Of a stretch of DNA of 64,000 bases, positions 385 through 59,768 are shown in pieces. The stretch's first letter is position 1, and every line of letters begins with the position of its first letter. Made by a program: the position numbers and the translations under genes. Origin of the DNA: Candidatus Saccharimonadota bacterium (GTDB lineage Bacteria > Patescibacteriota > Saccharimonadia > Saccharimonadales > Saccharimonadaceae); NCBI GenBank assembly GCA_027492635.1, contig JAPUEH010000007.1, positions 62,001 through 126,000 on the forward strand, in the 5' to 3' direction. Under the pieces are notes generated by a model. The model did no database searches, was not told the origin of the DNA, and worked only from the letters and a program-made list of their open reading frames with translations.

Positions 385-1494
385 ATGAGTAAGCGAGATT
401 ATTACGAAGTACTAGGGGTAGCCAAAGACGCCAGCGCCGACGAGATCAAAAAGGCGTTTCGCAAGGCAGCCGTCAAGCACCACCCGGATAAAGAAGGTGG
501 CGACGAGACAAAGTTCAAAGAGATCAACGAAGCCTACGAAGTGCTCAAAGATCAGCAAAAACGCCAGCGTTATGACCAGTTTGGCCATGCGGGCGTTGGT
601 GGTGCAGCTGGCGGCGGTGCGGGTTATAGTGGCAATCCGTTTGAAGGTTTTGGCGGATTTGACGGCCAAAATATCCATTTTGATTTTGGCGATGGTGGCC
701 TTGGTGATATTTTTGGACAGTTTTTTGGTGGCAACGCGGGCGGTGGACGGCGGGCTCAGCGAGGCAATGACGTTGAAACGCGCATTACCCTCGATTTTGA
801 AGAAGCCGTTTTTGGCGTCGAAAAAACACTTAAACTTGATATGCAAGACCAGTGTTCGCACTGTCATGGCGACGGTGCGGAGCCAGGCTATGGCGTGAAA
901 ACGTGCGACACCTGCAAAGGCTCCGGCCAGATTCCAAAAGTTATGAACACGATGTTTGGACAAATCCAGCAATCTGTCGTATGCCAGACATGCGAGGGCA
1001 GGGGTAAAGTACCAGAAAAAGTTTGTACTGTGTGCAAAGGCCGCGGTACCGAGCGCCGCACTCAGGAGCTCACCATCAAGATTCCGGCAGGTATCGACGA
1101 CGGTGCGACGATTCGTCTGCGTGAGCGCGGCGAGGCTATTATGGGCGGGGCAAAGGGTGATTTGTATGTACATATTCGTGTCAAAGCACACAAAAAATTC
1201 ACACGCGAAGGTGACTTGGTGCTGAGCGAAGAGCATATAGATATGGTGGATGCGGCGCTCGGTACAGAAATAGACGTCGATACGGTAGACGGTGCGGTGC
1301 GTATGAAAGTGCCTGCTGGCACACAGAGCGGCACGGACTTCAAGTTGAGCGGCCATGGTGTACCTCACGGTAATGGTCGCGGATCGCACATCGTCAGCAT
1401 TGTTGTCGATACGCCGACCAAGCTAACGAAGAAGCAGCGTGACGCACTTGAACAGTTTAAGTCTTCTGGCAAAAAACGCTCGCTGTTTTCATAG
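385..1494 (+). CDS. dnaJ: Chaperone protein DnaJ (Hsp40)
   Basis: DnaJ is the co-chaperone that delivers unfolded clients to DnaK and stimulates its ATPase in the cytoplasm. The 369-residue protein has all parts of a type I DnaJ in order: J domain (about 1-70) with HPD at 33-35; a Gly/Phe-rich linker (about 70-125); a zinc-binding region with four CxxCxGxG-type motifs ([32 protein letters not shown]); and the C-terminal substrate-binding domain. Length is typical of the family. The ATG at 385 lies 8 nt after a TATACT box and has no Shine-Dalgarno, which suggests a leaderless transcript. Regulation by HrcA is likely because a CIRCE operator overlaps the promoter. dnaK and grpE are not next to it. 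Confidence 0.97.
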
Positions 1495-5532: not shown

Positions 5533-5801
5533 CTCTAGGTAGCAATAAAAAATATCCAAGGATTGTATACGCACAAACAAATCCCCTTCGCGAACACGTA
5601 TAGGAGATTTTTACTGCCTTGGTACGTTTTGGATGTAAGGTTTGTGTATATGAATAGATATGAGTAGCCCCCTGTTGTAAAACAGAGGGCTAACTGGCCA
5701 TCCATTTTTTACGCAGTATTAATTTAGCACGTTAATCAAGTCTGTTTGGATACAATAATTTTGTAATCTCACCTAATATAGATATACTGTCTCGTAGTAA
5801 T
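5533..5801 (+). other. Non-coding stretch with several complementary segments, upstream of the peptidase/ATP-grasp operon
   Basis: No credible gene is seen here. CCAAGG (5556-5561) can pair with CCTTGG (5617-5622), and TATACGCACAAAC (5566-5578) with GTTTGTGTATA (5640-5650). The two pairings cross, so they would form a pseudoknot or be alternatives. A further hairpin lies at 5666-5691 (AGCCCCCTGTT/AACAGAGGGCT), followed at distance by T6. TATACT at 5783-5788 is the likely -10 for the gene at 5802. A structured RNA or leader is possible but not proven. Confidence 0.35.
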
Positions 5802-6881
5802 ATGACGTCACATCCTACAGCATCGCATAGCTATTTTACTATCATAAATCGCCGTCAGCAAAAAGATGATTTTTTGGCTGGGACTGTTGAGGAGCCTCAT
5901 TTTGTGTATGGCGAGTTGTATAGGCGGGATGTCGTGACTCGGCGTATAGCGACAGCTGTATCTCAAAAAGAAAAAGATAATTTATTGCTCGTAGAGGCAA
6001 GTCTTGTTATTAATGAATCGGATGTAATGGATAATAACCTCCTGCATTTTCGTGCCGAGAATAAACGGGTTTTTGGGGAACCGCGGTATGACTATCTGTG
6101 TGCGATCCTTGGTCGTATTGGAGAAAAGTCTGGCGTGCATACTGAGTTGTGGCAATATATACAAACACACGTCGACTATCATGACGAAAGTGCAAGCTTT
6201 GCGCCAAGTCACGAAACGTTTCTTTGGTATAAAAATCTTTTTGCGCAGTACTTCTACATGCCAGTTGGCGCGCATATTTCGCTTGTTGAGGCGCTGCGCA
6301 TCGGTGTAGAGACGACGGGGCTTGCAAAAAAAGGATGGCAGGTGAGTGAGCGTAGTGATGCGAGCCACGCACGCGTCAATCACGCGACGAAGAAAATATT
6401 TGTAGGGAGAGAGTATGTGCCGCGTCGGCGCTTATCCATAAATATGATTGTCGCACATGAGGTGTATGGACACGCGGTGCGTGGTGTGCGTGAGTCTATG
6501 GCCGAGAGTGAAGGGTTTGCAATTGTACTTGAGCAGTTACTAGCGCCACGATTTGCATATCGGCGGACTTTTCGCTACGTGGCGGCGGCGCTAGGTTGGG
6601 GTGTGGATGGCAGGCCGCGCACATTTCGGCAAGTGTATGAAATCATATGGCGGCTTATGGTGGTTGTTGGCAGGTATGATGAGGCGACTGCCAAGAGTCA
6701 TGCATTTGATGAGTGCGCGCGAGTTTTTCGTGGAGGCCGGCCAGATGTACCTGGCGCTGTGTATCTCAAAGATATGGTGTATTTTGCTGCGAATGTGGAA
6801 ATCTGGCAGCAGCTTGATAAGCGTAGATTATCGTATAATGAGTTTATAACTTTTATAGAAGGAAAGGGGGTCTTGGGATGA
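5802..6881 (+). CDS. DUF1704/MATCAP-type HExxxH metallo-carboxypeptidase homolog
   Basis: The 359-residue protein carries HEVYGH (H219, E220, H224), an HExxxH zinc site, followed about 15 residues later by an ESEGFA segment matching the QEGLA-type motif of the DUF1704 family. That family includes eukaryotic tubulin-tail carypeptidases of the MATCAP/TMCP group; bacterial members are uncharacterised as far as I know. No signal peptide is visible, so it should act in the cytoplasm. TATACT at 5783-5788 precedes the ATG by 13 nt and there is no Shine-Dalgarno. Its TGA overlaps the next ATG (6878-6881), so it is translationally coupled to an ATP-grasp ligase and co-operonic with a RimK-type ligase. 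Removal of residues added by these ligases is an inference from context. Confidence 0.8.
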   Translation: MTSHPTASHSYFTIINRRQQKDDFLAGTVEEPHFVYGELYRRDVVTRRIATAVSQKEKDNLLLVEASLVINESDVMDNNLLHFRAENKRVFGEPRYDYLCAILGRIGEKSGVHTELWQYIQTHVDYHDESASFAPSHETFLWYKNLFAQYFYMPVGAHISLVEALRIGVETTGLAKKGWQVSERSDASHARVNHATKKIFVGREYVPRRRLSINMIVAHEVYGHAVRGVRESMAESEGFAIVLEQLLAPRFAYRRTFRYVAAALGWGVDGRPRTFRQVYEIIWRLMVVVGRYDEATAKSHAFDECARVFRGGRPDVPGAVYLKDMVYFAANVEIWQQLDKRRLSYNEFITFIEGKGVLG

Positions 6882-7762
6882 AGGTGTTACTTGTGGGCTC
6901 TCGACATGTAGGGACAAAAAATGATCCGAGCAGTATCTATCAAGGGATTGTTGATGCTGGCGGCAACGCTGAGTTGATATATTGGGAAGATTTGCAGCTG
7001 CATGCAAAAACAGGAGAAGCGACTGCTTGCGTTGATAGACGCGACGTATTGAGCGATGTTCAAAAAGTGTTGCTGTTTGGCTGGTACAAGAGTGGGCGTG
7101 ATAGTATTTACCGCGACGTTGCATATGCGTTTTCGTTGATAGCGGCGCACAAACAAATCGAGGTATGGAATAGCGAGGCGCTTGCACAACGGTCTACAAC
7201 GAAACTCTCATGTATGGTGCAGCTTGCAATAGAAGGTGTGCAGATTCCTGAGACGTGGTTCTCGCTTGGTGATACGGTGCTGGTGCACCAGCGTACATTC
7301 CCATATATTGCCAAAGCAATATCAGCAAGTAGAGGGCGTGATAATTACTTGATACAAGATGATGTTATGCGTGCGGACGTCACCGCACTACATCATGAAA
7401 AACGCTTTATGGTGCAAGAATACCTCGAGAATGATCATGATCTTCGGGTAGTATGCTTTGGGGGTCGACCAAAACTTGTCCTGCGGCGGTCGCGTTCGGA
7501 TACGAAAACACATCTCAATAACACTTCACAGGGTGCTGTCGGAGAGTGGCTTGATATCGATACATTGCCGTCGCAACTATTGACAGAGTGTAGCAATATT
7601 TGTATAATCACAAAAAGAGAAATGGCTGGGATAGATTTTATTCCTGCACGCACGTCGCCATATGGATATAGCTGTCTAGAGGTCAACGCAATCCCGCAGC
7701 TTACGAGTGGTTTCGGCGTAGACAAAAAAATGGCTACTCTTATAGAAACAATCCTAAAATAA
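6878..7762 (+). CDS. ATP-grasp ligase, RimK/glutathione-synthetase-like
   Basis: The 294-residue protein has an N-terminal pre-ATP-grasp segment (about 1-100), then ATP-grasp features: NSEALAQRSTTKLSCM (start of the domain, like N-S...R..K), KAISASRGRDNY (ATP-binding Lys and loop), FMVQEYLENDHDLRVVCFGGR (central strand with acidic and Arg residues), and GIDFIP...CLEVNAIPQL (metal-binding E-x-N). Such enzymes activate a carboxylate by ATP and join it to an amine, often as amino-acid ligases. It overlaps the DUF1704 peptidase by 4 nt (ATGA) and is followed 19 nt later by a clear RimK. The glycine-rich loop is less canonical than in the RimK downstream, so substrate specificity probably differs. 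The actual substrate is unknown. Confidence 0.85.
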   Translation: MKVLLVGSRHVGTKNDPSSIYQGIVDAGGNAELIYWEDLQLHAKTGEATACVDRRDVLSDVQKVLLFGWYKSGRDSIYRDVAYAFSLIAAHKQIEVWNSEALAQRSTTKLSCMVQLAIEGVQIPETWFSLGDTVLVHQRTFPYIAKAISASRGRDNYLIQDDVMRADVTALHHEKRFMVQEYLENDHDLRVVCFGGRPKLVLRRSRSDTKTHLNNTSQGAVGEWLDIDTLPSQLLTECSNICIITKREMAGIDFIPARTSPYGYSCLEVNAIPQLTSGFGVDKKMATLIETILK

Positions 7763-7781
7763 CAAGGAGTGACCGGAAGCG

Positions 7782-8681
7782 ATGAAGATAGGTATCATAA
7801 CACGAGTACCCGGCTATACTGTGCGGCGTCTACGTGAAGAAGCGCGAAAGCGTGGTCATGAGGTCGTGACAATTAAGTATCCGGAATGCTATGTGGAAAT
7901 CGAGCAAGATCGACCGACAGTTTTTTATCGTGGCAATGAGCTCAACGACTTTGATGCGGTAGTGCCACGAATTTTGCCAGGTATGACAGCCTACGGCGCT
8001 GCGATTATTCGTCAGTTTGAGATGATGGGCGTCTATACGCCAGTTCGGTCTATTGCCATCACTCGCTCGCGTGATAAGCTGCGTTCACTGCAGCTACTAA
8101 GCAAGGCGCAGGTTGGTATTCCAAAGACGATCTTCTCGCGCGAAACAGATGCGGTGGACGATTTGGTTGATCGAGTGGGCACCCCTTCGATTATTAAGCT
8201 TACATCAAGTACCCAGGGCAATGGCGTGGTGCTTGCGGAGACAAAAAAGGCGGCGAAGTCTGTGATTCAGGCATTTTATGTGAACGATACCAGCTTTTTG
8301 ATACAAGAGTTCGTCAAAGAATCTGCTGGTATAGACATTCGAGTGTTTGTAGTGGGTAGCCAGGTGGTCGCAAGTATGCAGCGCCAGAGTTTAGACGACG
8401 ACTTTCGATCCAATATACATCAAGGTGGTACAGGCAAAGTCATCAAGCTTACCGAAGATGAGCGCAAGACTGCGCTGCGAGCCGCAAAAGCTATGGGGCT
8501 TTCTATATGCGGGGTTGATTTAATGCGAAGTGATCGCGGGCCGCTTGTACTTGAGGTGAATTCTGCACCCGGACTAGAAGGTATTGAGGCGGTTACTGGA
8601 CGCAATGTGGCGGGCAAGATTGTGGAGTATATTGAGCGCAATGCCAAGCGTCGCGTGAAAAAAGACAAAGTTGGTGCATAG
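7782..8681 (+). CDS. rimK: RimK-type alpha-L-glutamate ligase (ATP-grasp)
   Basis: At 299 residues it is the size of E. coli RimK and shows the same order of features: MKIGIITR Rossmann-like start, RSRDKLRSLQLLSKAQVGIPKT at the start of ATP-grasp, IIKLTSSTQGNGVVLAE ATP loop, FLIQEFVKESAGIDIRVFVVG, the RSNIHQGGTG loop, and GVDLMRSDRGPLVLEVNSAPGLEGIE with the metal-binding E-x-N. RimK adds glutamates to the C terminus of ribosomal protein S6 in proteobacteria; other homologs modify other acceptors, so the target here is open. AAGGAGTG lies upstream of the ATG at 7782, giving efficient re-initiation. It is the third gene after the DUF1704 peptidase and the other ATP-grasp enzyme. Confidence 0.9.
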   Translation: MKIGIITRVPGYTVRRLREEARKRGHEVVTIKYPECYVEIEQDRPTVFYRGNELNDFDAVVPRILPGMTAYGAAIIRQFEMMGVYTPVRSIAITRSRDKLRSLQLLSKAQVGIPKTIFSRETDAVDDLVDRVGTPSIIKLTSSTQGNGVVLAETKKAAKSVIQAFYVNDTSFLIQEFVKESAGIDIRVFVVGSQVVASMQRQSLDDDFRSNIHQGGTGKVIKLTEDERKTALRAAKAMGLSICGVDLMRSDRGPLVLEVNSAPGLEGIEAVTGRNVAGKIVEYIERNAKRRVKKDKVGA

Positions 8682-8714: not shown

Positions 8715-9194
8715 ATGGAATATGGTGGACGTAGCAACGCCGAGCACAATCTCGTGTGGGTAGGAATTATCGGCATTTTCGGTCTACTTGTGTTGTTTGT
8801 GGCGTATACATTTTGGCCAAATGGTGGCGCAACCTCCGTATCGATTGGCCCAAAGACGTTCTATGCTGATGTAGCAGATACCGACGAAACTCGCGAAATA
8901 GGACTGACGCAGCACGCCACCCTTAAGGAAAATCAAGCCCTATTGATGATTTATGATCATGATGCAGTGCGTCCAATGATGACAAAAGGCATGCAGTTCC
9001 CCGTGGATATTGTGTGGCTTGATAGCAACAAAAGAGTTGCGTTTGTGGCTCGAAATGCAAAACCATCCGAGACAAATGTATTTCGACCGTCCGGCAAGAC
9101 GCGCTACGTGATGATGTTTCCTGCTGGTTCTGCGGCGAAATACAATATTTCTGTGGGGCAAAGTGTCGATTTTTCTTATACGGGGGATATGTAG
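8715..9194 (+). CDS. DUF192-family protein with N-terminal membrane anchor
   Basis: The 159-residue protein has one hydrophobic helix near the N terminus (about 14-33, LVWVGIIGIFGLLVLFVAYTF) and a DUF192 domain outside the membrane. Family marks are the TREIGLTQHATLKENQALLMIYD segment (the R..GL..R..L...LF pattern), FPVDIVWLD (the PLDI.. pattern), and RYVMMFPAG near the end (the YVLE..AG pattern). DUF192 proteins are small beta domains of unknown biochemical role. It begins its own transcription unit from TATAAT at 8702. Its stop overlaps the start of the next gene by one base (9194), so both are probably translated together. Confidence 0.85.
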   Translation: MEYGGRSNAEHNLVWVGIIGIFGLLVLFVAYTFWPNGGATSVSIGPKTFYADVADTDETREIGLTQHATLKENQALLMIYDHDAVRPMMTKGMQFPVDIVWLDSNKRVAFVARNAKPSETNVFRPSGKTRYVMMFPAGSAAKYNISVGQSVDFSYTGDM

Positions 9195-10045: not shown

Positions 10046-11344
10046 CTATCGGCGGCGGCTCGCAAGGTAGTAGTGAGCGGCAAGACCCATGGCGGCGAAT
10101 CCTACACCACTTGCGAGGAAGTCGGCTGGACCTGTCTTTGGCAACTCTACTGGTGTTGCACATTCAGGGCTAATAGCTGGCAGGTGTTCAAAGCCTGGAA
10201 TCGGACACTTAGCTTCACAGTCTTTGAGGTCTTTGCTGTGCTTGGTAGCGTCAAACTGTTCTTCGGTGATTGTGATTGCCTGCTTGCTTGTGAGATCACA
10301 TACGATGATGTTGTCGGGAGTTTTGCAATCGTCGAAGTTTTTGCTGTGTTTGGTGGCATCAAAGCCTGTTTCGCGGATGGTGGCAATTTCTTTTGTCTTG
10401 AGAACACAGACTTGGATTTTGCTACAGTCTTTGAGGTCTTTGCTATGTTTTTTGCTGTCGAACTGGTCTTCATTGATCTTGATGATCGCGTTAGTGTCTA
10501 GGTCACATACTTCTATTTTTACGCAATCTTTGACGTTTTTGCTGTGCTTTTTGCTATCAAATTCTTTTTCGTCAATCTTGATAACACTTTGAGTTGTCAG
10601 GTCGCACACTTCGATGATAACAACTTTACAGTCTTCCAGGTTTTTGCTGTGAGCAGCAGGGTTAAACTGATCTTCTTTGATAGTAATGATTTTTTTGGTC
10701 GCGATTTCACATACTTGGATATCTTTCACGACTGGCTTTGGAGGTTTCGGTGGATTGTTTGGTGTTGCATAGATTGGGTTGCCGCAATCTTTGACAAGCG
10801 CGTATTTGAAGTTGCCGTCTTTGTCGAGTACGACAAGCGTTGCAAGCGAAGCATTTGGATTGGCAAATGCACGTCCGCCGACATGTGATGTTTGGTAGTA
10901 TGTTTTGCCTTTGATAGAGATTGGACGGCTGTTTTTGATGGCGTGACGACCAATACTTTCGGCATTTTTGGCAACGACACGACCGTTGGCAACGACTTCA
11001 CCGCGGTTGTTGGCTTGACCGCTATAGACTTTGTCGCCGGCAGTAAGGTGCGGCTTGATCCAGTAGTGATCATAAATGGCGCGGAAGTCTCCGCATGTGT
11101 TGGCATTGTGATGACGTGTGATGTCTGCTTGGCTGCGAATGCCACTTGCGACAATATCATTGGTATTACATTCGTTTGAGGCATTGGTGGCAGGCTGGTT
11201 GAATTGGTAGATGCCTACGCCCATAAAGACGACAGCGAGTGCAAAGAAGCTGCTGACAAGATAGCTACTGCTTTTGATGTGGTGCAGGTGGGTCGCTGCA
11301 CTGCGGAGCGTCTTTTTAATGTTGGTGGTTTTTGTGTGGTGCAT
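10046..11344 (-). CDS. Sortase-type (LPKTG) surface protein with five Cys-containing repeats
   Basis: The 432-residue protein has an N-terminal hydrophobic helix (about 27-48), a globular region (about 55-195), a Pro/Lys linker (PNNPPKPPKPVVKD), and five tandem repeats of about 35-40 residues. Each repeat follows the pattern V-C-x-L-x-(T/S)...I-x-I-x-E...(H)-S-K-(N/D)-x-x-D-C, giving a conserved Cys pair. The end is a classic cell-wall sorting signal: LPKTG, a hydrophobic stretch, then RRR. The repeats look like extracellular stalk modules; partner and ligand are unknown, and no sortase gene is in the window. The promoter is TTGACA (11415 to 11410) and TAATAT (11392 to 11387) with 17-nt spacing, leaving a leader of about 35 nt without an obvious Shine-Dalgarno. 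Confidence 0.88.
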   Translation of the reverse strand: MHHTKTTNIKKTLRSAATHLHHIKSSSYLVSSFFALAVVFMGVGIYQFNQPATNASNECNTNDIVASGIRSQADITRHHNANTCGDFRAIYDHYWIKPHLTAGDKVYSGQANNRGEVVANGRVVAKNAESIGRHAIKNSRPISIKGKTYYQTSHVGGRAFANPNASLATLVVLDKDGNFKYALVKDCGNPIYATPNNPPKPPKPVVKDIQVCEIATKKIITIKEDQFNPAAHSKNLEDCKVVIIEVCDLTTQSVIKIDEKEFDSKKHSKNVKDCVKIEVCDLDTNAIIKINEDQFDSKKHSKDLKDCSKIQVCVLKTKEIATIRETGFDATKHSKNFDDCKTPDNIIVCDLTSKQAITITEEQFDATKHSKDLKDCEAKCPIPGFEHLPAISPECATPVELPKTGPADFLASGVGFAAMGLAAHYYLASRRR

Positions 11345-11386
11345 GGTGTGTGATTCCGTTTTTTATTTTTATCAAATTATGTATCC

Positions 11387-11415
11387 ATATTAGCATAAAC
11401 ATTACATATTGTCAA
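11387..11415 (-). promoter_or_regulatory. Promoter of the LPKTG surface protein gene
   Basis: On the minus strand TTGACA (11415-11410) and TAATAT (11392-11387) are separated by 17 nt. The gene starts at 11344. Confidence 0.65.
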
Positions 11416-11469
11416 TATCATTGTAATCATCATAATATTGCCCATACGTCGGCATGCTACACTGGCTGT

Positions 11470-12930
11470 ATGTATTATTGGCTGTCGCGGCGGGTGCACA
11501 GTGTGTATTTGGTGGTTGGTTTGGCGATTGGTATATTGGCGGGCGCGCTGTTGGCGTACTATGTGCCGAGTGAGTGGTTTACGGCGTGGCCATGGTGGCT
11601 GGTGTGGCTGTCTCTTGGAGGTATGGCTATTCATAGGTCGCAGCGCTGGACGATAGGGGTGATGATAGTTGTGGGGTGTATGGTTGGCTATGGCCGCGGA
11701 GCGGAGGAGTTGGCGTCTTGGGTGGATGTTTCGTACGTGGCTGAAAAAACAGTGGTACTGCGCGGAGTGGTACGCGAGGATCCGGATCAGGGTGGTGGCA
11801 GTGAGAGGCGGCTTCGGGTTGGTGATGTGTATATCAACGATGTTGCCCACGGCGGCGTGTATTGGGTGACGGTGACAGGCAAACGCGCAGAGGCGATTGA
11901 ACGAAGTGACAGGGTGACACTGAGAGGAAAAATGCAGGCGGGTTTTGGCACGTTTGCCGGGGTGATGTATCGAGCTGAGGTTATGAGTCTAGAAAAAGCC
12001 GTGCGGTTTGATCCGATGCTTGGTATACGCAATGCATTTGCGGAGCGGATTCGCAGTATGATTCCGAATCCGGAGGCGGCGCTCGGGATTGGCTATATTT
12101 TGGGACAAAAGCGCGCGTTGCCGCCAGATTTTGAGGAAGCGTTGCTGGCTGTTGGCTTGACGCATGTCGTCGTGGCAAGCGGGTATAATCTTACGATTTT
12201 GGTGCGGCTGTGCCGACGGCTTTTTGCGCGGGTGTCGCGGTATGCGGCTGCTGCAACAAGCGGGGGATTGGTGCTCGCATTTGTTGGCGTAACGGGGATG
12301 AGTCCAAGTATGAGTAGGGCGGGTATTGTAGCAGGGCTTAGCCTGCTTGCATGGTATTATGGTCGGACGATTCATCCTGCGGTACTCCTTGTTGTGGCGG
12401 CTGCGATAACGGTCATGGTGCAGCCAAGTTATATATGGGGCGACGTAGGGTGGATGCTGAGCTTTGCGTCGTTTGCTGGCGTGATGTTTCTTGCTCCGCT
12501 GCTCCAGGCGTATTTTTATGGTGATAAAAAACCAGGAATTTTACGACAAGTACTTGGCGAGACTTTTTCTGCGCAACTTGTGACGTTGCCGATTATTCTT
12601 GTCACATTTGGCGTCATGTCGAATGTGGCGCTGCTGGCAAATGTATTGGTGCTGCCACTTGTGCCGCTCGCGATGCTGCTCACATTTGTTTCGGGGCTAG
12701 CGGGGTTTTTGCTGCCCGGTGTGGCGGAGCTTGTGGCTATGCCAACACACTGGCTGCTCGGCTATATGACATGGGTGATTATGGCTTTGGCCGAGTTGCC
12801 ATGGGCGAGTATGGAGGTGCAGGTGAGCGCGATGGCGGGGATTGCTATGGCGATTGGTATCATTTTGGCAATGGTGTGGTTGTGGCGGCGAACGCGGCTG
12901 ATTTTTCGGAAGGTTAACTTAGTTGAGTGA
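11470..12930 (+). CDS. comEC: ComEC/Rec2-type DNA uptake channel, membrane part only
   Basis: ComEC forms the inner-membrane channel for single-stranded DNA in natural transformation. This 486-residue version has two to three N-terminal helices, a DUF4131-like soluble region (about 80-175), then the Competence domain: LPPDFEEALLAVGLTHVVVASGYNL (the family's L..GL.H..A.SG.N pattern) and a series of helices to the end. The C-terminal metallo-beta-lactamase-like domain found in many ComEC proteins is absent. The frame is open up to an ATG at 11332, but that region is AT-rich intergenic DNA and overlaps the divergent gene. ATG 11470 lies 6 nt after TACACT (11458-11463). Type IV pilus genes at 21462-29946 are likely partners. 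Confidence 0.88.
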   Translation: MYYWLSRRVHSVYLVVGLAIGILAGALLAYYVPSEWFTAWPWWLVWLSLGGMAIHRSQRWTIGVMIVVGCMVGYGRGAEELASWVDVSYVAEKTVVLRGVVREDPDQGGGSERRLRVGDVYINDVAHGGVYWVTVTGKRAEAIERSDRVTLRGKMQAGFGTFAGVMYRAEVMSLEKAVRFDPMLGIRNAFAERIRSMIPNPEAALGIGYILGQKRALPPDFEEALLAVGLTHVVVASGYNLTILVRLCRRLFARVSRYAAAATSGGLVLAFVGVTGMSPSMSRAGIVAGLSLLAWYYGRTIHPAVLLVVAAAITVMVQPSYIWGDVGWMLSFASFAGVMFLAPLLQAYFYGDKKPGILRQVLGETFSAQLVTLPIILVTFGVMSNVALLANVLVLPLVPLAMLLTFVSGLAGFLLPGVAELVAMPTHWLLGYMTWVIMALAELPWASMEVQVSAMAGIAMAIGIILAMVWLWRRTRLIFRKVNLVE

Positions 12931-14020: not shown

Positions 14021-15829
14021 ATGATACGTCGCATGCTTGTTGGCTGGGTACATTATGGCATACGAGTTTTTCTTGCGGCAACACTTGTGTTTTCGGTGAT
14101 GTTGCAGCCTGTTGCTGCGTTGGAGGTGCCGACTGAGGATATGCCTGTAAAAGAAGAGTCTGCCATGGCTAATCCTGTTGTTTTAGAGCAGCAGGATAGT
14201 CAAGAAGAGTTGGCAATTGCGGAAGATGTGCCCGTGGTCGTCATGCAGGAGGAGGAGTCGGATATAGCACCGTCAGAGCATGTCGAAACTTCGACGGTAG
14301 TTGCTGCGGAGGTCGAGCCATCAGACCTACCGCCTATTGGGAATGAGAGTCAATTAGTAATTTCTGAAGTGCGGCTTGGCGGTGCGAATCTTGTTGATGT
14401 CGGAGGACGTACGGCTAAAGAATATGTGACACTTGCAAATATATCTTCCGAGGATATTGTACTACAAAAATGGCAACTACATTACGCCAAGGCCTCGATG
14501 GCGGCAGTCTCTTGTGTGGCAAGTAAATGGTCGTCGGCAGAAGAATTGAGCGGTGTGATAGAAGCCGGAAAAACAATGTCGGTGGAGATAAGTTTGACGG
14601 ATCGGGCTGCGGGCTCGGTGCGGATTGTGGATGCGGCGAATGTAGTGCACGATATGGTGGGATGGGGTGCAGCACCATGTTTCGAGACGGCATCTTTTGG
14701 CGCGATTCCTGCCCAGGATGAAAGCTTGCTGCGCTTGGCAAATTGCGACGGGAAATATGATGGTGTTGATACGAATAATAATGCACATGATTTTGTTGTT
14801 GGAACATCGCTCTCTGTGCGGCTGCTGCCAGAATGTATGCCGCCAGAGCCAGAAGCTCCTGGCTCGGAAGAGCCGCCGCTTGTGCCAACTATAAACCAAT
14901 GCGAGGGGCTGCGACTTTCCGAAATTGGCGCCAATTTAACTCGACAGTTTGTCGAGTTGCGTACCACATTAGATGAGCCGTTGGATGTGACGGGTTGCCG
15001 GGTGATGACGAATCGTTCCGCGAGCAAATACTACGCGTTGCCGAATCTGACAATTAATCCAGGTGAGCGCGTGGCGGTATATATTGCCGATACACCGTTG
15101 ACATTAACAAAGACGACGACCGGTACGGTATATCTTTTGAATGCGGACGGTAGTATTGAAATAGAGAGCCAGAGTTATGCAAATCTTGCGGCCGAGACGG
15201 CGTGGGCCTGGTTTGCGGAAGGCTGGCAACAGACATTTACACCTACTCCTGGTGAGGTAAATGTTACGATGAAATACTTGCCGTGCGATACGGGGTATGA
15301 GCGTAATGAAGAGACGGGGCGCTGCAAGAAAGTAGCTGCGGTGACAGAGTTGGCAGATTGTGGCGAGGGCAAATATCGTAGTGAAGAAACGGGAAGATGC
15401 CGCAATATCACGGTTGAGTCGGCACTGGCGGCGTGTGTGGCGAATCAGTATCGCTCGCCAGAAACAAATCGTTGTCGTAACATTGCAACGGCATCAGCTT
15501 CGCTGACGCCATGCAAGGCGGGACAAGAGCGAAATCCGGATACAAACCGTTGTCGTGCTGTGGCAACGACAGCATCGGCAAGTCTGAAGCCGTGTGCGGC
15601 GGGTCAAGAGCGCAACCCTGCGACCAATCGCTGTCGCAAAGTGGTGCAGGGTGATGGCAGCGCAGGATTTAAGGTGGTAGATCAAGGAAACACAGCCGAC
15701 CATATGGCGTCATGGCTCGCACTGGGTGGCGTGGGTTCGATGGCGCTTGGCTACGGCGCATGGGAGTGGCGACGAGAAATGTGGGGAGCGCTTGGGAAAG
15801 TGTTTGGCGCGCTGCCGTTTGTAAAATAG
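14021..15829 (+). CDS. Surface protein with two lamin-tail-like domains and Cys-rich repeats
   Basis: The 602-residue protein has a signal peptide (about 1-34, ending PVAAL), an acidic Val/Glu-rich linker, and two LTD-like beta domains. Domain 1 (about 110-255) begins LVISEVRLGG and includes GRTAKEYVTLANIS; domain 2 (about 297-415) begins LRLSEIGANLTRQFVELR. Five short repeats follow (about 420-550) of the type C-x-x-G-x-E-R-N-x-x-T-N-R-C-R-x-V, each with a Cys pair. A transmembrane helix lies near the end (MASWLALGGVGSMALGYGAW) with a short basic tail. The layout indicates an outward-facing anchored protein, perhaps for adhesion; no enzymatic motif is seen. It sits between yebC and ruvC but has its own leaderless promoter. 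Confidence 0.85.
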   Translation: MIRRMLVGWVHYGIRVFLAATLVFSVMLQPVAALEVPTEDMPVKEESAMANPVVLEQQDSQEELAIAEDVPVVVMQEEESDIAPSEHVETSTVVAAEVEPSDLPPIGNESQLVISEVRLGGANLVDVGGRTAKEYVTLANISSEDIVLQKWQLHYAKASMAAVSCVASKWSSAEELSGVIEAGKTMSVEISLTDRAAGSVRIVDAANVVHDMVGWGAAPCFETASFGAIPAQDESLLRLANCDGKYDGVDTNNNAHDFVVGTSLSVRLLPECMPPEPEAPGSEEPPLVPTINQCEGLRLSEIGANLTRQFVELRTTLDEPLDVTGCRVMTNRSASKYYALPNLTINPGERVAVYIADTPLTLTKTTTGTVYLLNADGSIEIESQSYANLAAETAWAWFAEGWQQTFTPTPGEVNVTMKYLPCDTGYERNEETGRCKKVAAVTELADCGEGKYRSEETGRCRNITVESALAACVANQYRSPETNRCRNIATASASLTPCKAGQERNPDTNRCRAVATTASASLKPCAAGQERNPATNRCRKVVQGDGSAGFKVVDQGNTADHMASWLALGGVGSMALGYGAWEWRREMWGALGKVFGALPFVK

Positions 15830-51176: not shown

Positions 51177-51773
51177 ATGAGTGATCCGCAAAAAGTAGTC
51201 TTGGTGGATATGGATGGTGTCATGGCGGATTTTGACAGTGCTGCACTGGCAGCTATTCCCGAATCTATGATTGTACCGCGAACTGAATTCTATGTAGCAC
51301 AAGATTATCCACTACAGGTACGGCCGAGTATCGAGTCGACATATAATGCACCTGGTTTTTTTGAAACGTTAGAGCCTATGCCTGGCCTGCTCGATGCATG
51401 GCGGGTGATGCTTGCTCATGGCTACCATCCTAGGGTCGCCTCGGCGCCACTTTCCAGCAACAAGACGTCCATTGCGGGTAAAATGAGGTGGCTAGAGCGT
51501 ATCATGGTGCCTGAGTTTGGACTTTCTGTTGTTGAAGACGCGGTATTTGATAAGCATAAGTGGCAATACAAAGGCCTAGTGCTGATTGATGACAGACCAT
51601 ATGTGCCAAGGGGTGAGAATGGTGAGGATGTGGCAATGTGGGAGCACATACTTTTTGGCTGGCAGCATCTTGCAGAGGTTTCATCGGCGACAACGAGCCT
51701 ACGGCTGCGCAGCTGGAGTGATACAACGTCACTACTTACGCTATTGCAGCGTGTTGAACAGTCAAAGGCTTAG
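51177..51773 (+). CDS. 5'(3')-deoxyribonucleotidase-like HAD phosphatase
   Basis: The 198-residue protein starts with the HAD nucleophile motif VVLVDMDGVMADF, followed by GFFETLEPMPGLLDAWRVMLAHGYHPRVASAP (motif II region) and LVLIDDRPYVPRG (motif III/IV acidic pair). This matches the NT5C family that dephosphorylates deoxynucleotides. It would recycle nucleotides, fitting a cell with little biosynthesis. TATACT ends 8 nt before the ATG. Its stop shares TTAG (51770-51773) with the MurA fusion. Confidence 0.87.
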   Translation: MSDPQKVVLVDMDGVMADFDSAALAAIPESMIVPRTEFYVAQDYPLQVRPSIESTYNAPGFFETLEPMPGLLDAWRVMLAHGYHPRVASAPLSSNKTSIAGKMRWLERIMVPEFGLSVVEDAVFDKHKWQYKGLVLIDDRPYVPRGENGEDVAMWEHILFGWQHLAEVSSATTSLRLRSWSDTTSLLTLLQRVEQSKA

Positions 51774-53299
51774 ATCTCCCGGACAGTATCGATCTGTGCG
51801 CCAAGGCTATTCAATCGGCCGGCTAGCTCTTCGTAGCCGCGGTTGATTGAATATACATCACGAAGTGTTGAAATACCGGGCGCAGCGAGCATTGCAAGTA
51901 GTATCACTACCGAAGGACGAAGAGCCGGTGGTGCAACAACGTCTGCTGGCCGCCATTTTGTGGGGCCGGTAATATAGACACGGTGCGGGTCGACGAGTTC
52001 AATATGGGCATCGAGTTTGGAGAGCTCTGTAAAATAAATTGCCCTGTTTTCATAGCTCCAATCGTGTACGAGCGAGCGGCCTTTTGCCATCGTTGCGATA
52101 AGCCCGAGAAATGGAAGATTATCCATATTGACGCCAGGAAACGGCATACTGTGGAGCTTGTCTTTGGGCGCAGTAAGTTTGGCTCGGCGAAGTGTAATGT
52201 CGACAAGACGGGTGTGGCCATTGCGTGCAGTGTACTCGTCTGTGAGCGAGAAGTCGGCGCCCATACTGCGTAGTATTGCCAGCTCAATTTCGAGAAACTC
52301 AATAGGCGCACGCTCGATGGTAATTTCGGAATCTGTGACGATACCAGCCGCAATGAAGCTCATCGCTTCTATCGGGTCTTCGCTTGGATAGTACTCTACA
52401 TCGGTATCGATTTTGCTACGACCAGTAACGCGTAGGGTAGTGGTGCCAATCCCTTCTATTTCGACGCCAAGTTTTTGCAAGAAGAAACAAAGGTCTTGCA
52501 CCATGTAATTTGGACTGGCGTTGCGAATTGTTACCGTACCGTCGTACAGCGCGGCGGCCATCAAGACGTTTTCTGTCACGGTGTCGCCGCGTTCTGTGAG
52601 TAGAATTGTCTGTTCGACGGCTACTGGAGTAGATTTGGCGACATAGGCGCTATTTGTAGCGGTGACAGAGAGGCCAAATGGTGCGAGACCTGTCATGTGA
52701 GGCTCAACAGTACGCGTGCCGAGGTTGCAGCCACCAGCAAACGGCAGTTTGAATTCACTGTATTGATGTAGCAAGGGGCCAAGAAACATGATGATAGAGC
52801 GGGTACGCTTGGCGGCTTCTATATCGATATGCTCAAGATTGAGCTGTTTGGGGGTGGTGATCTCTAGATCATTTTCTTCGCCGATCCAGCGGGTTTTGAC
52901 GCCGATGCTCTGGAGCACTTCTATGATACGATTGACTTCTTCGATGCGCGCCACGCGGCGAAGAGTGGTTTTGCCTTGGTTGAGCAGACTGGCGCAGAGC
53001 AGAGCGACGGCAGCGTTTTTGCTTGTCTTGGTGACGATGTTGCCGCTTAGCTTGCGACCGCCATGTACCCTAAAGTTGGTTTTGCCGCTGTGATTGATAG
53101 TCATAATGTTGCTTGAGAGTACGTCGCTTATACGGGCGATCATCTCGACACTGATATTTTGCCCGCCTTTTTCGATACGGTTGATAGCAGACTGACTGGT
53201 GCCAAGTGCTTCGGCAAGCTGTGTTTGAGTAAATCCACGCGCAAGACGTGTTTCTTGGATCAAATTACCTATTTTTGTACGATATTCTTCGACACTCAT
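51770..53299 (-). CDS. murA: HTH-MurA fusion: UDP-GlcNAc 1-carboxyvinyltransferase with N-terminal Cro/C1-type HTH
   Basis: Residues about 1-65 form an HTH_3 domain (IGNLIQETRLARGFTQTQLAEALGTSQSAINRIEKG). The rest (about 75-509) is a MurA-type EPT enzyme with SKNAAVALLCASLL (the K-N catalytic pair), FAGGCNLGTRTVEPH (the GGC Cys of PEP-reacting MurA), and PFPGVNMDNLPFLG (catalytic Asp). MurA makes UDP-GlcNAc-enolpyruvate, the first committed step of peptidoglycan synthesis. ATG 53299 is chosen over 53308 because TATAAT (53312 to 53307) overlaps the upstream ATG and ends 7 nt before 53299. A palindrome lies on this promoter, suggesting self-regulation by the HTH. Alternatively the HTH may have another role. 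Confidence 0.9.
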   Translation of the reverse strand: MSVEEYRTKIGNLIQETRLARGFTQTQLAEALGTSQSAINRIEKGGQNISVEMIARISDVLSSNIMTINHSGKTNFRVHGGRKLSGNIVTKTSKNAAVALLCASLLNQGKTTLRRVARIEEVNRIIEVLQSIGVKTRWIGEENDLEITTPKQLNLEHIDIEAAKRTRSIIMFLGPLLHQYSEFKLPFAGGCNLGTRTVEPHMTGLAPFGLSVTATNSAYVAKSTPVAVEQTILLTERGDTVTENVLMAAALYDGTVTIRNASPNYMVQDLCFFLQKLGVEIEGIGTTTLRVTGRSKIDTDVEYYPSEDPIEAMSFIAAGIVTDSEITIERAPIEFLEIELAILRSMGADFSLTDEYTARNGHTRLVDITLRRAKLTAPKDKLHSMPFPGVNMDNLPFLGLIATMAKGRSLVHDWSYENRAIYFTELSKLDAHIELVDPHRVYITGPTKWRPADVVAPPALRPSVVILLAMLAAPGISTLRDVYSINRGYEELAGRLNSLGAQIDTVREI

Positions 53300-53306
53300 A
53301 ACTACC

Positions 53307-53334
53307 ATTATATCACATATGATATATTAGCAAA
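53307..53334 (-). promoter_or_regulatory. Promoter and palindromic operator of the HTH-MurA gene
   Basis: Minus-strand TATAAT (53312-53307) with TTTGCT (53334-53329) at 16 nt. ATATCA-CATA-TGATAT at 53310-53325 is a perfect inverted repeat overlapping the -10 and spacer. Confidence 0.65.
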
Positions 53335-56588: not shown

Positions 56589-59500
56589 TTAGTAAAATAC
56601 CGTATCACCCCAAGCTACTTCGGTAGTATTACGGGAGTAGTTGGTCGTAACGACGGGGGTGGTTTGGCTGCCTCCTGCGACACCAGTACCCAGCTGTCCC
56701 TGAGTATTGCTACCCCAGCAGAATATCTTGCCATTGGCGATGGCACAGGTATGGTCTGTACCCGCGGACACACTAAGTGGCTTATTTTGTTCGCCAAGTA
56801 GCGAAGCGCCATTTGCTTCGGTAACCGAGGCGGTGATCGAAGAGCTGCTGCTGCTTGTGCCGTTGCCAACTTTGCCGCTGGTCTGTGACCCCCAGCACTT
56901 GAGGTAGCCCGCAATCATGCCGCAGGAATGATTTGATCCAACGCTGATCGATGTCGTGTTGTTTGTTTCATCGGTGGTATTTGCTCGACGAACAATCATC
57001 GGTGTTGTTCGGTCGCTCGTACCGCCGCTACCTACACCCAGGCGATTGTCGGCTCCGGCCCCCCAGCATTTTGTAACGCCGCCCTCTACGGCACAGACGG
57101 AGCTGTCGCCTGCTTCTATGTTAGTCGTCGCACCTGTCATGCCCGATACAAGGGTTGGCGTCGTGGTGTTGCCAGATGTTGAGCCGCCATTGCCAATGCG
57201 ACCATTGCTGCGTATGCCCCAGCAGTATGGCTCTCCGTCGGCCACTGCGCAGGTGAAGTTATTGCCCGCAGTGATACTGGTGACGAGTTTGCCCGCGAGG
57301 TTGGTGGTGACTTTGACGGGGCTTGTGTAGGTGGTTGTGTTGCCTTGGCCGAGTTGACCATTGCTGTTTGATCCCCAACACCATGCATCACCGCTAGCAA
57401 TGGCACAGGTGTGGTTGGTGCCCGCAGAGATATCTGTGACGGCAAGTCCCGTGAGACCAGTAGCGGCAACCGGAAGATTGGAGGTGGTCATCGTACCATC
57501 ACCCAGCTGCCTGCTTCCATTTGCCCCCCAACAATATGCTCTATTGTCGGTGACTGAACAAGTATGGGTTGATCCCGCACTGATTTTTGATGTGTAGTTG
57601 GTGGTGAGGCCAATGACGCTTGTTGGCCTTGGCTGCTGCACATAGTTGCCTTGGCCGAGCTGACCACTTCCATTTGCCCCCCAGCAGAACGGCTGAGAGT
57701 TGATGATGGCGCAGGTATGGTTGGCGCCTGCACTTACTGCTGTGGCGGCCTCTCCTGCTGTAAGGCCTATTTCGTTGGTGGTGCGTGCCCACGGGAGGAG
57801 TGTAGAAGAGCTGCTGGTAAAGCCTCGTCCAAGCTGGCCGACAGTGTTGAAGCCTTTGCAATATACTGTCGAGTTGATGGTTACACATTGTGCGCCAGGT
57901 GTTAAGAAAAAGCCAAGTCCAGAAGATGCGTCGCTTCCTGCGCCTGTGCCAATGTCGGTAATTTTACCGCTTGGTAAACCAGGGATGGCTGATGGTGATG
58001 AATCGCCCACGACGATAGGGGTGGTGGTGCCCGGTTGGTTAAGCCCCCAGCAATAGATATTGCCACTACCGAGCATACACATAGGGCCATTTGTTTCGTC
58101 TCGTGCGGCAACAGTATTGACGAGTGCACCACCAAGATCGACGAGCTTTGGCCGGTTGCTGTTTGCGGTATTTTGTCCGCCATCACCGCGTAGACGTCCC
58201 CAGCAGTAGCCATTGCCTTCCGCTACTGCGCAGCCGGTGGCGCTACCTGCGGCGACAGAATTCGCTCGCTTGCCGCTGAGTGCGGAGCCGGTCATATCGG
58301 TTTTTTGTGTATTGGCTGCTTGTTGCGTGAGGCCGTTTGTTATTGTGTCACCACCTATGGACGCGGCGAAGTCGCCCCAACAATATACTTTGCCGCCAGT
58401 GGCGATAGCACAGGTACCTGCCATACCTGTCGATACATCAAGTGCTCGCTTACCTGCAAAGAGTGCAACACTTGTCTGCTCGCGATTGTCGCGGTTGGCA
58501 AACCCATAGACGGGTACAGGAGCTTTGCCCGGCTGGCTAGTAAGGAATGTAGTAGGCGGGGTTGTGAGGAGTCCTGCACAGAGGTACTTGCTATTTAGAC
58601 CGATCCAGTCTTTTTCTGTCCACCAGTCATTACAGCTAATACCGATACCTGCGATAGTCCCGCTGTACTTTGGTTGCCCTAGCTGGGCATAGTTATTGTT
58701 ACCCCAACAATATACTTTACCATTGGCAAGTCCGCATACGGCTACTCTGTCTGGGAATGAACCGGCTGACCATCCATAACTGATCTTGGTGACGTTGGCG
58801 CCATTTAGTGCTCCGGCGATATTGCTCGGTGCGTAGCGTGGCCCTGCAGCAAGGTCGTCAAACCCAAAGTAGAACACATCAGTAAGTCCGGCAAATGGAT
58901 TGAGCGTATTGAAAAGTTCCAGCAGGGATGTATCGCCGGTGCCAACCTGTCCGTATGAGTTTGATCCCCAGCATTGCCCTCGACCTTCTGCAACGGCACA
59001 AGCGCCGATTGAGCCTGCGGATACACTGTCGACACGTTTATTTGCTATGTGCTTGGTATTGACGCGCACGGGACTTGTTTTGTTGTCGGCACTGATGGCG
59101 CCTGTGATGCACTTCCAGCCAAGGATAGGGGTAAGGCATTCCGTGAGTCCCATTTGTCCGAGCGTGTTACTGCCCCAGCACCACAGTTCTTGATTGGCAA
59201 CAGAGCAACTAAAATGTTGACCAGACGAGATCTGCGTGACAGCGCGTCCTTGTGCGATAGGGATGTTGGATGCAGCGAGATTAAGTGGGATATTGATAAT
59301 GGTACGTTGTTCAAATGTGCGTGTGGGCGTGCTGCTGCCTGCATAGTAAAACGAGACTCTACCGATAGCAGTGATTTTTGCACCACTACTTGTAATGTCT
59401 GGATTTGCTCCACTTTTGGTTGGCGAAAGAACTTCAAACGTACTGCGGACCATACTGCTGCTCGTGCCGCTAACAAGCTGATTGCTACTCACGGTTGTTT

Positions 59501-59768
59501 GTCCGTCGCAGGCAAGGTGGGGTCTGAGGGTGCGTCCCTCCCATGCCGGCGTATCAACATTACCTGCTTGCTGAAGACAATTGTACGCCATAGCGGCACC
59601 CGCATTCGCGGCCTCTTTGGCTACGTTGTTGTAAAAAATTGTCTGAACCGAATTTGTCTGCGATGCGACATACTGCATGACGACAATGCCTAGTGACATC
59701 AAAACAAGAGAAAAGACAACCAGTGATGGAAGAATAAAACCTGATTTGCTGGAGTGGCTATAGCGCAC
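56589..59768 (-). CDS. Giant minor pilin with 14 RCC1-type repeats (putative pilus-tip adhesin)
   Basis: The 1059-residue protein starts with a prepilin-like leader MRYSHSSKSG then FILPSLVVFSLVLMSLGIVVMQYVA; Glu at +5 is replaced by Ser, as in GspK-like tip pseudopilins. After a linker come repeats with consensus S-A-G-x-x-H-T-C-A-I...Y-C-W-G-x-N-x-x-G-Q-L-G, the RCC1 pattern with an added Cys pair per repeat. I count 14, enough for two seven-bladed propellers. The disulfides fit an extracellular location. GTG 59768 overlaps the upstream pilin-like gene by 11 nt. A tip adhesin recognising a host or surface is inferred; RCC1-like folds also occur in non-adhesive roles. Confidence 0.88.
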   Translation of the reverse strand: MRYSHSSKSGFILPSLVVFSLVLMSLGIVVMQYVASQTNSVQTIFYNNVAKEAANAGAAMAYNCLQQAGNVDTPAWEGRTLRPHLACDGQTTVSSNQLVSGTSSSMVRSTFEVLSPTKSGANPDITSSGAKITAIGRVSFYYAGSSTPTRTFEQRTIINIPLNLAASNIPIAQGRAVTQISSGQHFSCSVANQELWCWGSNTLGQMGLTECLTPILGWKCITGAISADNKTSPVRVNTKHIANKRVDSVSAGSIGACAVAEGRGQCWGSNSYGQVGTGDTSLLELFNTLNPFAGLTDVFYFGFDDLAAGPRYAPSNIAGALNGANVTKISYGWSAGSFPDRVAVCGLANGKVYCWGNNNYAQLGQPKYSGTIAGIGISCNDWWTEKDWIGLNSKYLCAGLLTTPPTTFLTSQPGKAPVPVYGFANRDNREQTSVALFAGKRALDVSTGMAGTCAIATGGKVYCWGDFAASIGGDTITNGLTQQAANTQKTDMTGSALSGKRANSVAAGSATGCAVAEGNGYCWGRLRGDGGQNTANSNRPKLVDLGGALVNTVAARDETNGPMCMLGSGNIYCWGLNQPGTTTPIVVGDSSPSAIPGLPSGKITDIGTGAGSDASSGLGFFLTPGAQCVTINSTVYCKGFNTVGQLGRGFTSSSSTLLPWARTTNEIGLTAGEAATAVSAGANHTCAIINSQPFCWGANGSGQLGQGNYVQQPRPTSVIGLTTNYTSKISAGSTHTCSVTDNRAYCWGANGSRQLGDGTMTTSNLPVAATGLTGLAVTDISAGTNHTCAIASGDAWCWGSNSNGQLGQGNTTTYTSPVKVTTNLAGKLVTSITAGNNFTCAVADGEPYCWGIRSNGRIGNGGSTSGNTTTPTLVSGMTGATTNIEAGDSSVCAVEGGVTKCWGAGADNRLGVGSGGTSDRTTPMIVRRANTTDETNNTTSISVGSNHSCGMIAGYLKCWGSQTSGKVGNGTSSSSSSITASVTEANGASLLGEQNKPLSVSAGTDHTCAIANGKIFCWGSNTQGQLGTGVAGGSQTTPVVTTNYSRNTTEVAWGDTVFY

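Follow-up and report, generated by a model that had tools for sequence, protein, structure and literature searches.

Three adjacent genes of a Candidatus Saccharimonadota bacterium, located in the 64,000-nucleotide stretch of contig JAPUEH010000007.1 analysed here (hereafter the window), are interpreted, with somewhat more confidence than doubt, as a RimK tail-glutamylation module in which the eraser RimB has been replaced by a carboxypeptidase of the MATCAP type. The genes lie head to tail on the plus strand; the first two share an ATGA, which gives a 4-nt overlap, and the second and third are separated by 19 nt. These frames, coordinates and spacings had been given in an earlier note on this DNA and were borne out by a check of the open reading frames of the window. 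The three genes, together with the proposed zinc-binding positions of the first product, are as follows:

5802..6881, + strand: divergent zinc metallopeptidase of the DUF1704/MATCAP fold, 359 aa, proposed to trim tails (profile, fold, conserved residues)
6456..6473, + strand: HEVYGH (H219-H224), the HExxxH zinc motif, with H219, E220 and H224 invariant in 37 relatives
6510..6512, + strand: E237, proposed third zinc ligand, at the EEG motif position of TMCP/MATCAP (PMC10499314; alignment)
6878..7762, + strand: RimK/LysX/ArgX-type ATP-grasp ligase, 294 aa (TIGR00768 match, model, residue comparison)
7782..8681, + strand: RimK, of the ribosomal protein S6--L-glutamate ligase type, 299 aa (Pfam, NCBIfam and PDB matches, poly-Glu residues)

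The peptidase is judged from its sequence to be a divergent rather than a classical DUF1704/MATCAP member, because the single sequence stays under the Pfam cut-off (MATCAP, PF08014; 19.7 bits, cut-off 27) and relatives of the same clade score near or over it (29.1 bits in G048 and 50.1 bits in G341). Its match to TIGR02421 (QEGLA) is likewise weak (18 bits, cut-off 339). A profile built from its relatives matched the human MATCAP structures 7z5g (7.8e-10) and 7z6s (1e-7), with no other notable match. AlphaFold2 models the protein with high confidence (predicted local distance difference test score (pLDDT) 94.5, predicted template modelling score 0.92), and in a Foldseek search human MATCAP 7z5g was the sole PDB match at E <= 0.001 (3e-4, probability 1.00), followed by zinc carboxypeptidases at weaker E values. 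The active site of TMCP/MATCAP enzymes consists of HExxxH and the Glu of an EEG motif (PMC10499314); in the alignment of the 37 relatives, E237 is kept in at least 90%, besides the three invariant motif residues. The family assignment made in the earlier note is thus upheld by the profile of the relatives, the predicted fold and the conserved zinc ligands, and the structural comparison with MATCAP that it called for returned that protein as the only confident PDB match. No obvious signal peptide could be found in the peptidase.

By its similarity to characterized enzymes, the third gene encodes a genuine RimK. Its product matches PF08443 at an E value of 4e-61, lies narrowly above the cut-off of the NCBIfam equivalog PRK10446 for S6--L-glutamate ligase (331.4 vs 331 bits), and finds the RimK structures of Pseudomonas aeruginosa (1.9e-98) and Escherichia coli (4iwx; 7e-86) in the PDB. 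The ATP-binding residues K99, K139, E176, D246 and E258 match those of P. aeruginosa RimK, and R8, R63, R187 and N260 correspond to its poly-Glu binders R8, R64, R189 and N262; Thr is present at the positions of P. aeruginosa S7 and S14, and Gly at that of S68. The second ligase is a distant RimK-family ATP-grasp enzyme: a Pfam scan of this protein gave no match, and TIGR00768 was matched at an E value of 8e-16 (58.2 bits, under the cut-off of 143.4). The ATP-grasp family that had been proposed for both ligases therefore agrees with the TIGR00768 and RimK profile matches. The second ligase retains the ATP/Mg residues K109, K146, E181, D253, E268 and N270, and Ser and Phe replace the poly-Glu-binding R8 and R64 of P. 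aeruginosa RimK, so that this enzyme probably differs from RimK in its acceptor or its amino acid. Its model is also confident (pLDDT 93.8), and the nearest folds are ArgX bound to its carrier protein LysW, and RimK. Nothing was found in favour of the earlier suggestion that one ligase starts the tail and the other extends it; the second ligase keeps the ATP/Mg residues and is without the two poly-Glu arginines.

The occurrence of these genes was compared across 198 genomes of the window's family (Saccharibacteria), including 163 RimK-bearing genomes and 35 without strict RimK. DUF1704 was detected in 73 of the 198 genomes, and RimK accompanied it in 73/73; none of the 35 RimK-less genomes carries DUF1704 (Fisher 2e-8) and, at the genus level, the 29 genera with DUF1704 do not overlap with the 8 RimK-less genera (p 0.0036), p values that overstate the evidence because the genomes are related. 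The loci examined mostly share one layout, in which dnaJ is followed by variable genes, rimK, DUF192 and comEC, and DUF1704, additional ATP-grasps and RimB (PF05618) are among the variable genes. RimB is present in 152/198 genomes, 150 of which have strict RimK (150/163 of the RimK-bearing genomes), usually directly upstream of rimK and often fused to the second ATP-grasp. A search of the window genome (assembly 96% complete) gave no match to RimB, so the window locus does not qualify as a RimK-RimB system, even if its mode of action may be similar.

The complete order DUF1704-ligase-RimK occurs in seven genomes of two families, with intergenic distances of -4 to +19 nt, a recurrence and spacing that argue against chance. 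Six of them belong to the survey and represent six genera (G000, which is the window genome, G130, G129, G048, G104 and the more divergent G105), and RimB is absent genome-wide from 6/6. The seventh, G341, is a complete genome from another family of the order, with the same order, 4-nt overlaps and RimB likewise absent. In most of the trio genomes, the second ligase, often RimB-fused in relatives, overlaps DUF1704 by 4 nt. A scan of GTDB for close relatives of the trio found four, each already in the survey. The conserved linkage for which the earlier note had proposed a gene-order search across Saccharibacteria is thus present in these seven genomes.

Phylogenetic analysis further clarified the history of the locus. 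In the RimK tree, the five core trio genomes form one clade (support of 98 by the Shimodaira-Hasegawa-like approximate likelihood ratio test) with G105 as sister (84), and in the DUF1704 tree all seven trio genomes group together (89). On the other hand, the DnaJ and ComEC trees place the window genome with its own genus (99 and 100). The trio clade is rejected by the DnaJ and ComEC data (approximately unbiased (AU) test, 3e-4 and 4e-5), and the genus clade is rejected by the RimK data (AU 1e-5). Because of this conflict between the trio clades and the genus grouping, it is concluded that a trio cassette of one origin passed from genus to genus at a single locus and took the place of the version with RimB; the absence of RimB from the trio genomes thus amounts to a small number of events.

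In addition to the trio, direct fusions of ligase and peptidase were identified in the wider phylum. Of 287 Patescibacteria genomes, 63 have DUF1704, and more than 20 of these carry it within an open frame of about 770-1040 aa. Three such long proteins, from three other families, were scanned, and each is a single polypeptide of about 770-815 aa that combines a TIGR02291 (RimK-related) ATP-grasp with a C-terminal DUF1704 domain:

L140:4822-7218: ligase-DUF1704 fusion (TIGR02291 and DUF1704 matches)
L153:7090-9537: ligase-DUF1704 fusion (TIGR02291 and DUF1704 matches)
L159:7273-9579: ligase-DUF1704 fusion (TIGR02291 and DUF1704 matches)

Matches to TIGR02421 (QEGLA) in the fusion proteins reach 2e-63. 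Two fusion proteins were compared with our own profile, and both have a faintly RimB-like segment between their two domains that goes unrecognised by Pfam. In L140, the fusion is preceded by a 7TM_transglut (inactive-transglutaminase-7TM) gene, which makes this locus resemble an Rlo operon extended by a MATCAP domain, and in other Patescibacteria genomes a ligase, in several cases RimB-fused, is directly followed by DUF1704. Of the independent signs that ligase and peptidase share a pathway, their fusion is the strongest.

Based on these data, a cytoplasmic module is proposed, in which RimK would add glutamates at the C-terminal end of its target; precedent points to ribosomal protein S6, to free poly-alpha-glutamate or to both. 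The other ATP-grasp ligase would add to the same kind of tail with another acceptor or amino-acid specificity, acting either on the RimK tail or on another acceptor. The DUF1704 zinc carboxypeptidase would trim the tail from its C terminus, residue by residue, as TMCP/MATCAP enzymes do on tubulin, and would thereby fill the role of the unrelated retropepsin RimB of most relatives, a horizontal swap having exchanged the RimB-bearing version of the locus for the DUF1704-ligase-RimK cassette. The idea of a writer and an eraser, already put forward in the earlier note, gains support from the strict co-occurrence of DUF1704 with RimK, the lack of RimB in the trio genomes and the ligase-DUF1704 fusions elsewhere, which together point to such a pairing.

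Several observations weigh against this interpretation. The structural match between the peptidase and MATCAP has a template modelling score of only about 0.5 (0.48/0.51). Several genomes have RimK and neither RimB nor the trio, some of them fragmentary. Long DUF1704 paralogues stand alongside RimB in many genomes; the DUF1704 family is therefore not solely a RimB substitute, and the idea that it is a mere RimB replacement everywhere was ruled out. Moreover, because the trio has one origin and was spread by transfer, its mutual exclusion with RimB probably reflects one ancestral event, and a p value for it overstates the number of independent events. As for the target, S6 of the window genome (G000:C9:60002-60265, L082) has an acidic tail and ends in ...SESEEK, that is, with a terminal Lys, and S6 ending in Glu is about as common in genomes with RimK (20/28) as in those without strict RimK (19/27). 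Since S6 tails do not separate RimK-bearing from RimK-less genomes, S6, which the earlier note had offered as a possible target, is plausible by precedent only, and the comparison of tails speaks neither for nor against it.

The S6 tail also bears on the direction of the reaction. The peptidase might be an activator that trims encoded C-terminal residues, such as the Lys of S6, and exposes a glutamate for extension by RimK. S6 ends in EEK in all four sampled genomes of the genus (the window genome, G035, G079 and G100), all four of which carry DUF1704, and TMCP enzymes take off a terminal Tyr or Ala before Glu (PMC10499314). This alternative is nevertheless considered quite unlikely, as S6 of the other trio genomes ends in Glu or Ala, RimB is also found in the genus-mates that share the tail, and few independent lineages are involved. 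A module for the synthesis or degradation of poly-alpha-glutamate, a polyglutamylated cofactor, a glutathione-like compound or another free peptide or small molecule, in place of one acting on a protein tail, would fit the reports that RimK also makes free poly-alpha-glutamate with stimulation by RimB (PMC11957791), that cofactors are glutamylated by members of the same ligase family, and that the two RimK poly-Glu arginines are not in the second ligase. It is regarded as rather improbable, because the window RimK retains the poly-Glu-binding residues, most of the enzymes closest in fold to the second ligase modify proteins or peptides (ArgX with LysW, RimK with RpsF), and protein tails are the substrates of MATCAP.

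Little can be said for an independence of DUF1704 and RimK, in which the peptidase gene would have been carried along at a recombination hot spot bounded by dnaJ and comEC. The locus is indeed variable and holds other genes in some genomes, but the 4-nt overlaps recur across families, DUF1704 strictly co-occurs with RimK, and single-polypeptide fusions to a related ligase exist at other loci and in other families, all of which make this explanation very unlikely. The presence of PsnB, an enzyme of graspetide synthesis, and other ATP-grasp ligases among the fold matches of the second ligase might suggest a graspetide-like system of ribosomally synthesized and post-translationally modified peptides, with a small precursor peptide that is the substrate of the modifying ligases and of the cleaving peptidase. 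This scarcely credible reading was rejected, as the gaps of -4 to +19 nt leave no space for a precursor gene inside the three-gene unit; furthermore, the product of the third gene belongs to the RimK equivalog and is no macrocyclase, and we know of no link of MATCAP-type peptidases to leader cleavage.

Comparison with described systems helps to place the proposed module of glutamate ligase and MATCAP-type eraser. In the RimABK system of Pseudomonas (PMC4741518), RimB removes the glutamates added by RimK (PMC7343187, PMC11957791). The window locus resembles it in having a protease gene beside that of the RimK ligase, and RimB occupies this locus in most relatives; it differs in carrying a zinc metallopeptidase of another fold instead of RimB, and a second ATP-grasp. 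Since RimK-RimB has been described (PMC11957791, PMC7343187) and is present in most relatives of this genome, the earlier statement that no described bacterial system pairs these activities is incorrect. The TMCP/MATCAP enzymes (KIAA0895L/KIAA0895; 7z5g) cleave Tyr, Ala and Glu off the C terminus of tubulin and also make polyglutamate chains shorter (PMC10499314). The HExxxH motif with its downstream Glu ligand, the fold and an RG...KDxxY block are conserved in the window protein, which is, however, bacterial, about 14% identical over the structural match, and encoded in an operon with ligases. TIGR02421 (QEGLA) proteins belong to the same superfamily, and full-length matches in other Patescibacteria are fused or adjacent to a RimK-related ligase; the window protein, in contrast, falls in a divergent clade far below the family cut-off. 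The Rlo operon of P. aeruginosa consists of the RloA retropepsin, the RloB inactive transglutaminase-7TM protein and the RloC ATP-grasp (PMC12239564). It shares the logic of protease plus ATP-grasp, and in other Patescibacteria 7TM_transglut precedes the TIGR02291 ligase-DUF1704 fusion, whereas the window locus has RimK and is without a 7TM_transglut neighbour or a retropepsin.

No paper that links DUF1704 with ATP-grasp ligases, or that reports an operon of this kind for DUF1704/QEGLA proteins, could be found in the open literature, and an earlier mention in Iyer et al. 2009, on ATP-grasp neighbourhoods, is possible. The pairing of ligase and eraser in bacteria is already known; the novelty lies in the eraser, in its apparent substitution for RimB and in the fusions with a ligase. 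On a wider scale, it is tentatively suggested, with doubt outweighing confidence, that DUF1704/MATCAP proteins were originally bacterial erasers of ligase-made Glu tails, occurring across Patescibacteria as partners of, or in fusion with, RimK- and RloC-type ligases, that the eukaryotic trimmers of tubulin tails are an offshoot, and that RimB was displaced in the trio genomes by non-homologous replacement. The proposed module would give bacterial DUF1704/QEGLA proteins a testable function and link the enzymes that edit tubulin tails to bacterial glutamate tailing. If true, it would mean that a polyglutamylation eraser can be swapped between unrelated protease folds with the writer unchanged, and would imply possible regulated tailing of the ribosome, or of another protein, in tiny, gene-poor episymbionts.

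The remaining features of the locus in the window are as follows:

385..1494, + strand: dnaJ, conserved left border of the variable locus
5761..5788, + strand: promoter-like TTGTAA-16-TATACT directly upstream of the peptidase gene, weak, with a match count in the region at chance level
8715..9194, + strand: DUF192 protein, customary neighbour downstream of rimK, assigned here to the locus rather than to the system
11332..12930, + strand: comEC, conserved right border of the locus

The promoter and terminator scan of the region gave matches at chance level, and a scan for non-coding RNAs near the locus gave one tRNA and nothing else. No rimA could be recognised at the window locus, and PF14402 (7TM_transglut, RloB) had no match among the neighbouring window proteins scanned.

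In relatives, other genes are intercalated in the RimK locus, namely those of an unknown 441-aa protein (L066:7597), a lookalike, by eye, of Mur/folylpolyglutamate-type ligases (L080:1610), an L-amino-acid-ligase-like ATP-grasp (L069:8539) and an unknown 350-aa protein (L071:6118), and peptide-ligase genes seem to concentrate at this locus. Elsewhere in the window, a repeat protein with a C-terminal LPKTG-type motif and a membrane segment (10046-11344, - strand) is probably a sortase-anchored surface protein, and a secreted-looking protein (14021-15829, + strand) contains a Lamin Tail Domain together with cysteine-rich repeats that follow the pattern C..G.ERNP.TNRCR. Moreover, an HTH_3 helix-turn-helix domain is fused to a MurA/EPSP-synthase-type enzyme (51770-53308, - strand), and an RCC1-repeat protein of 1059 aa has a hydrophobic, prepilin-like N terminus (56589-59768, - strand).
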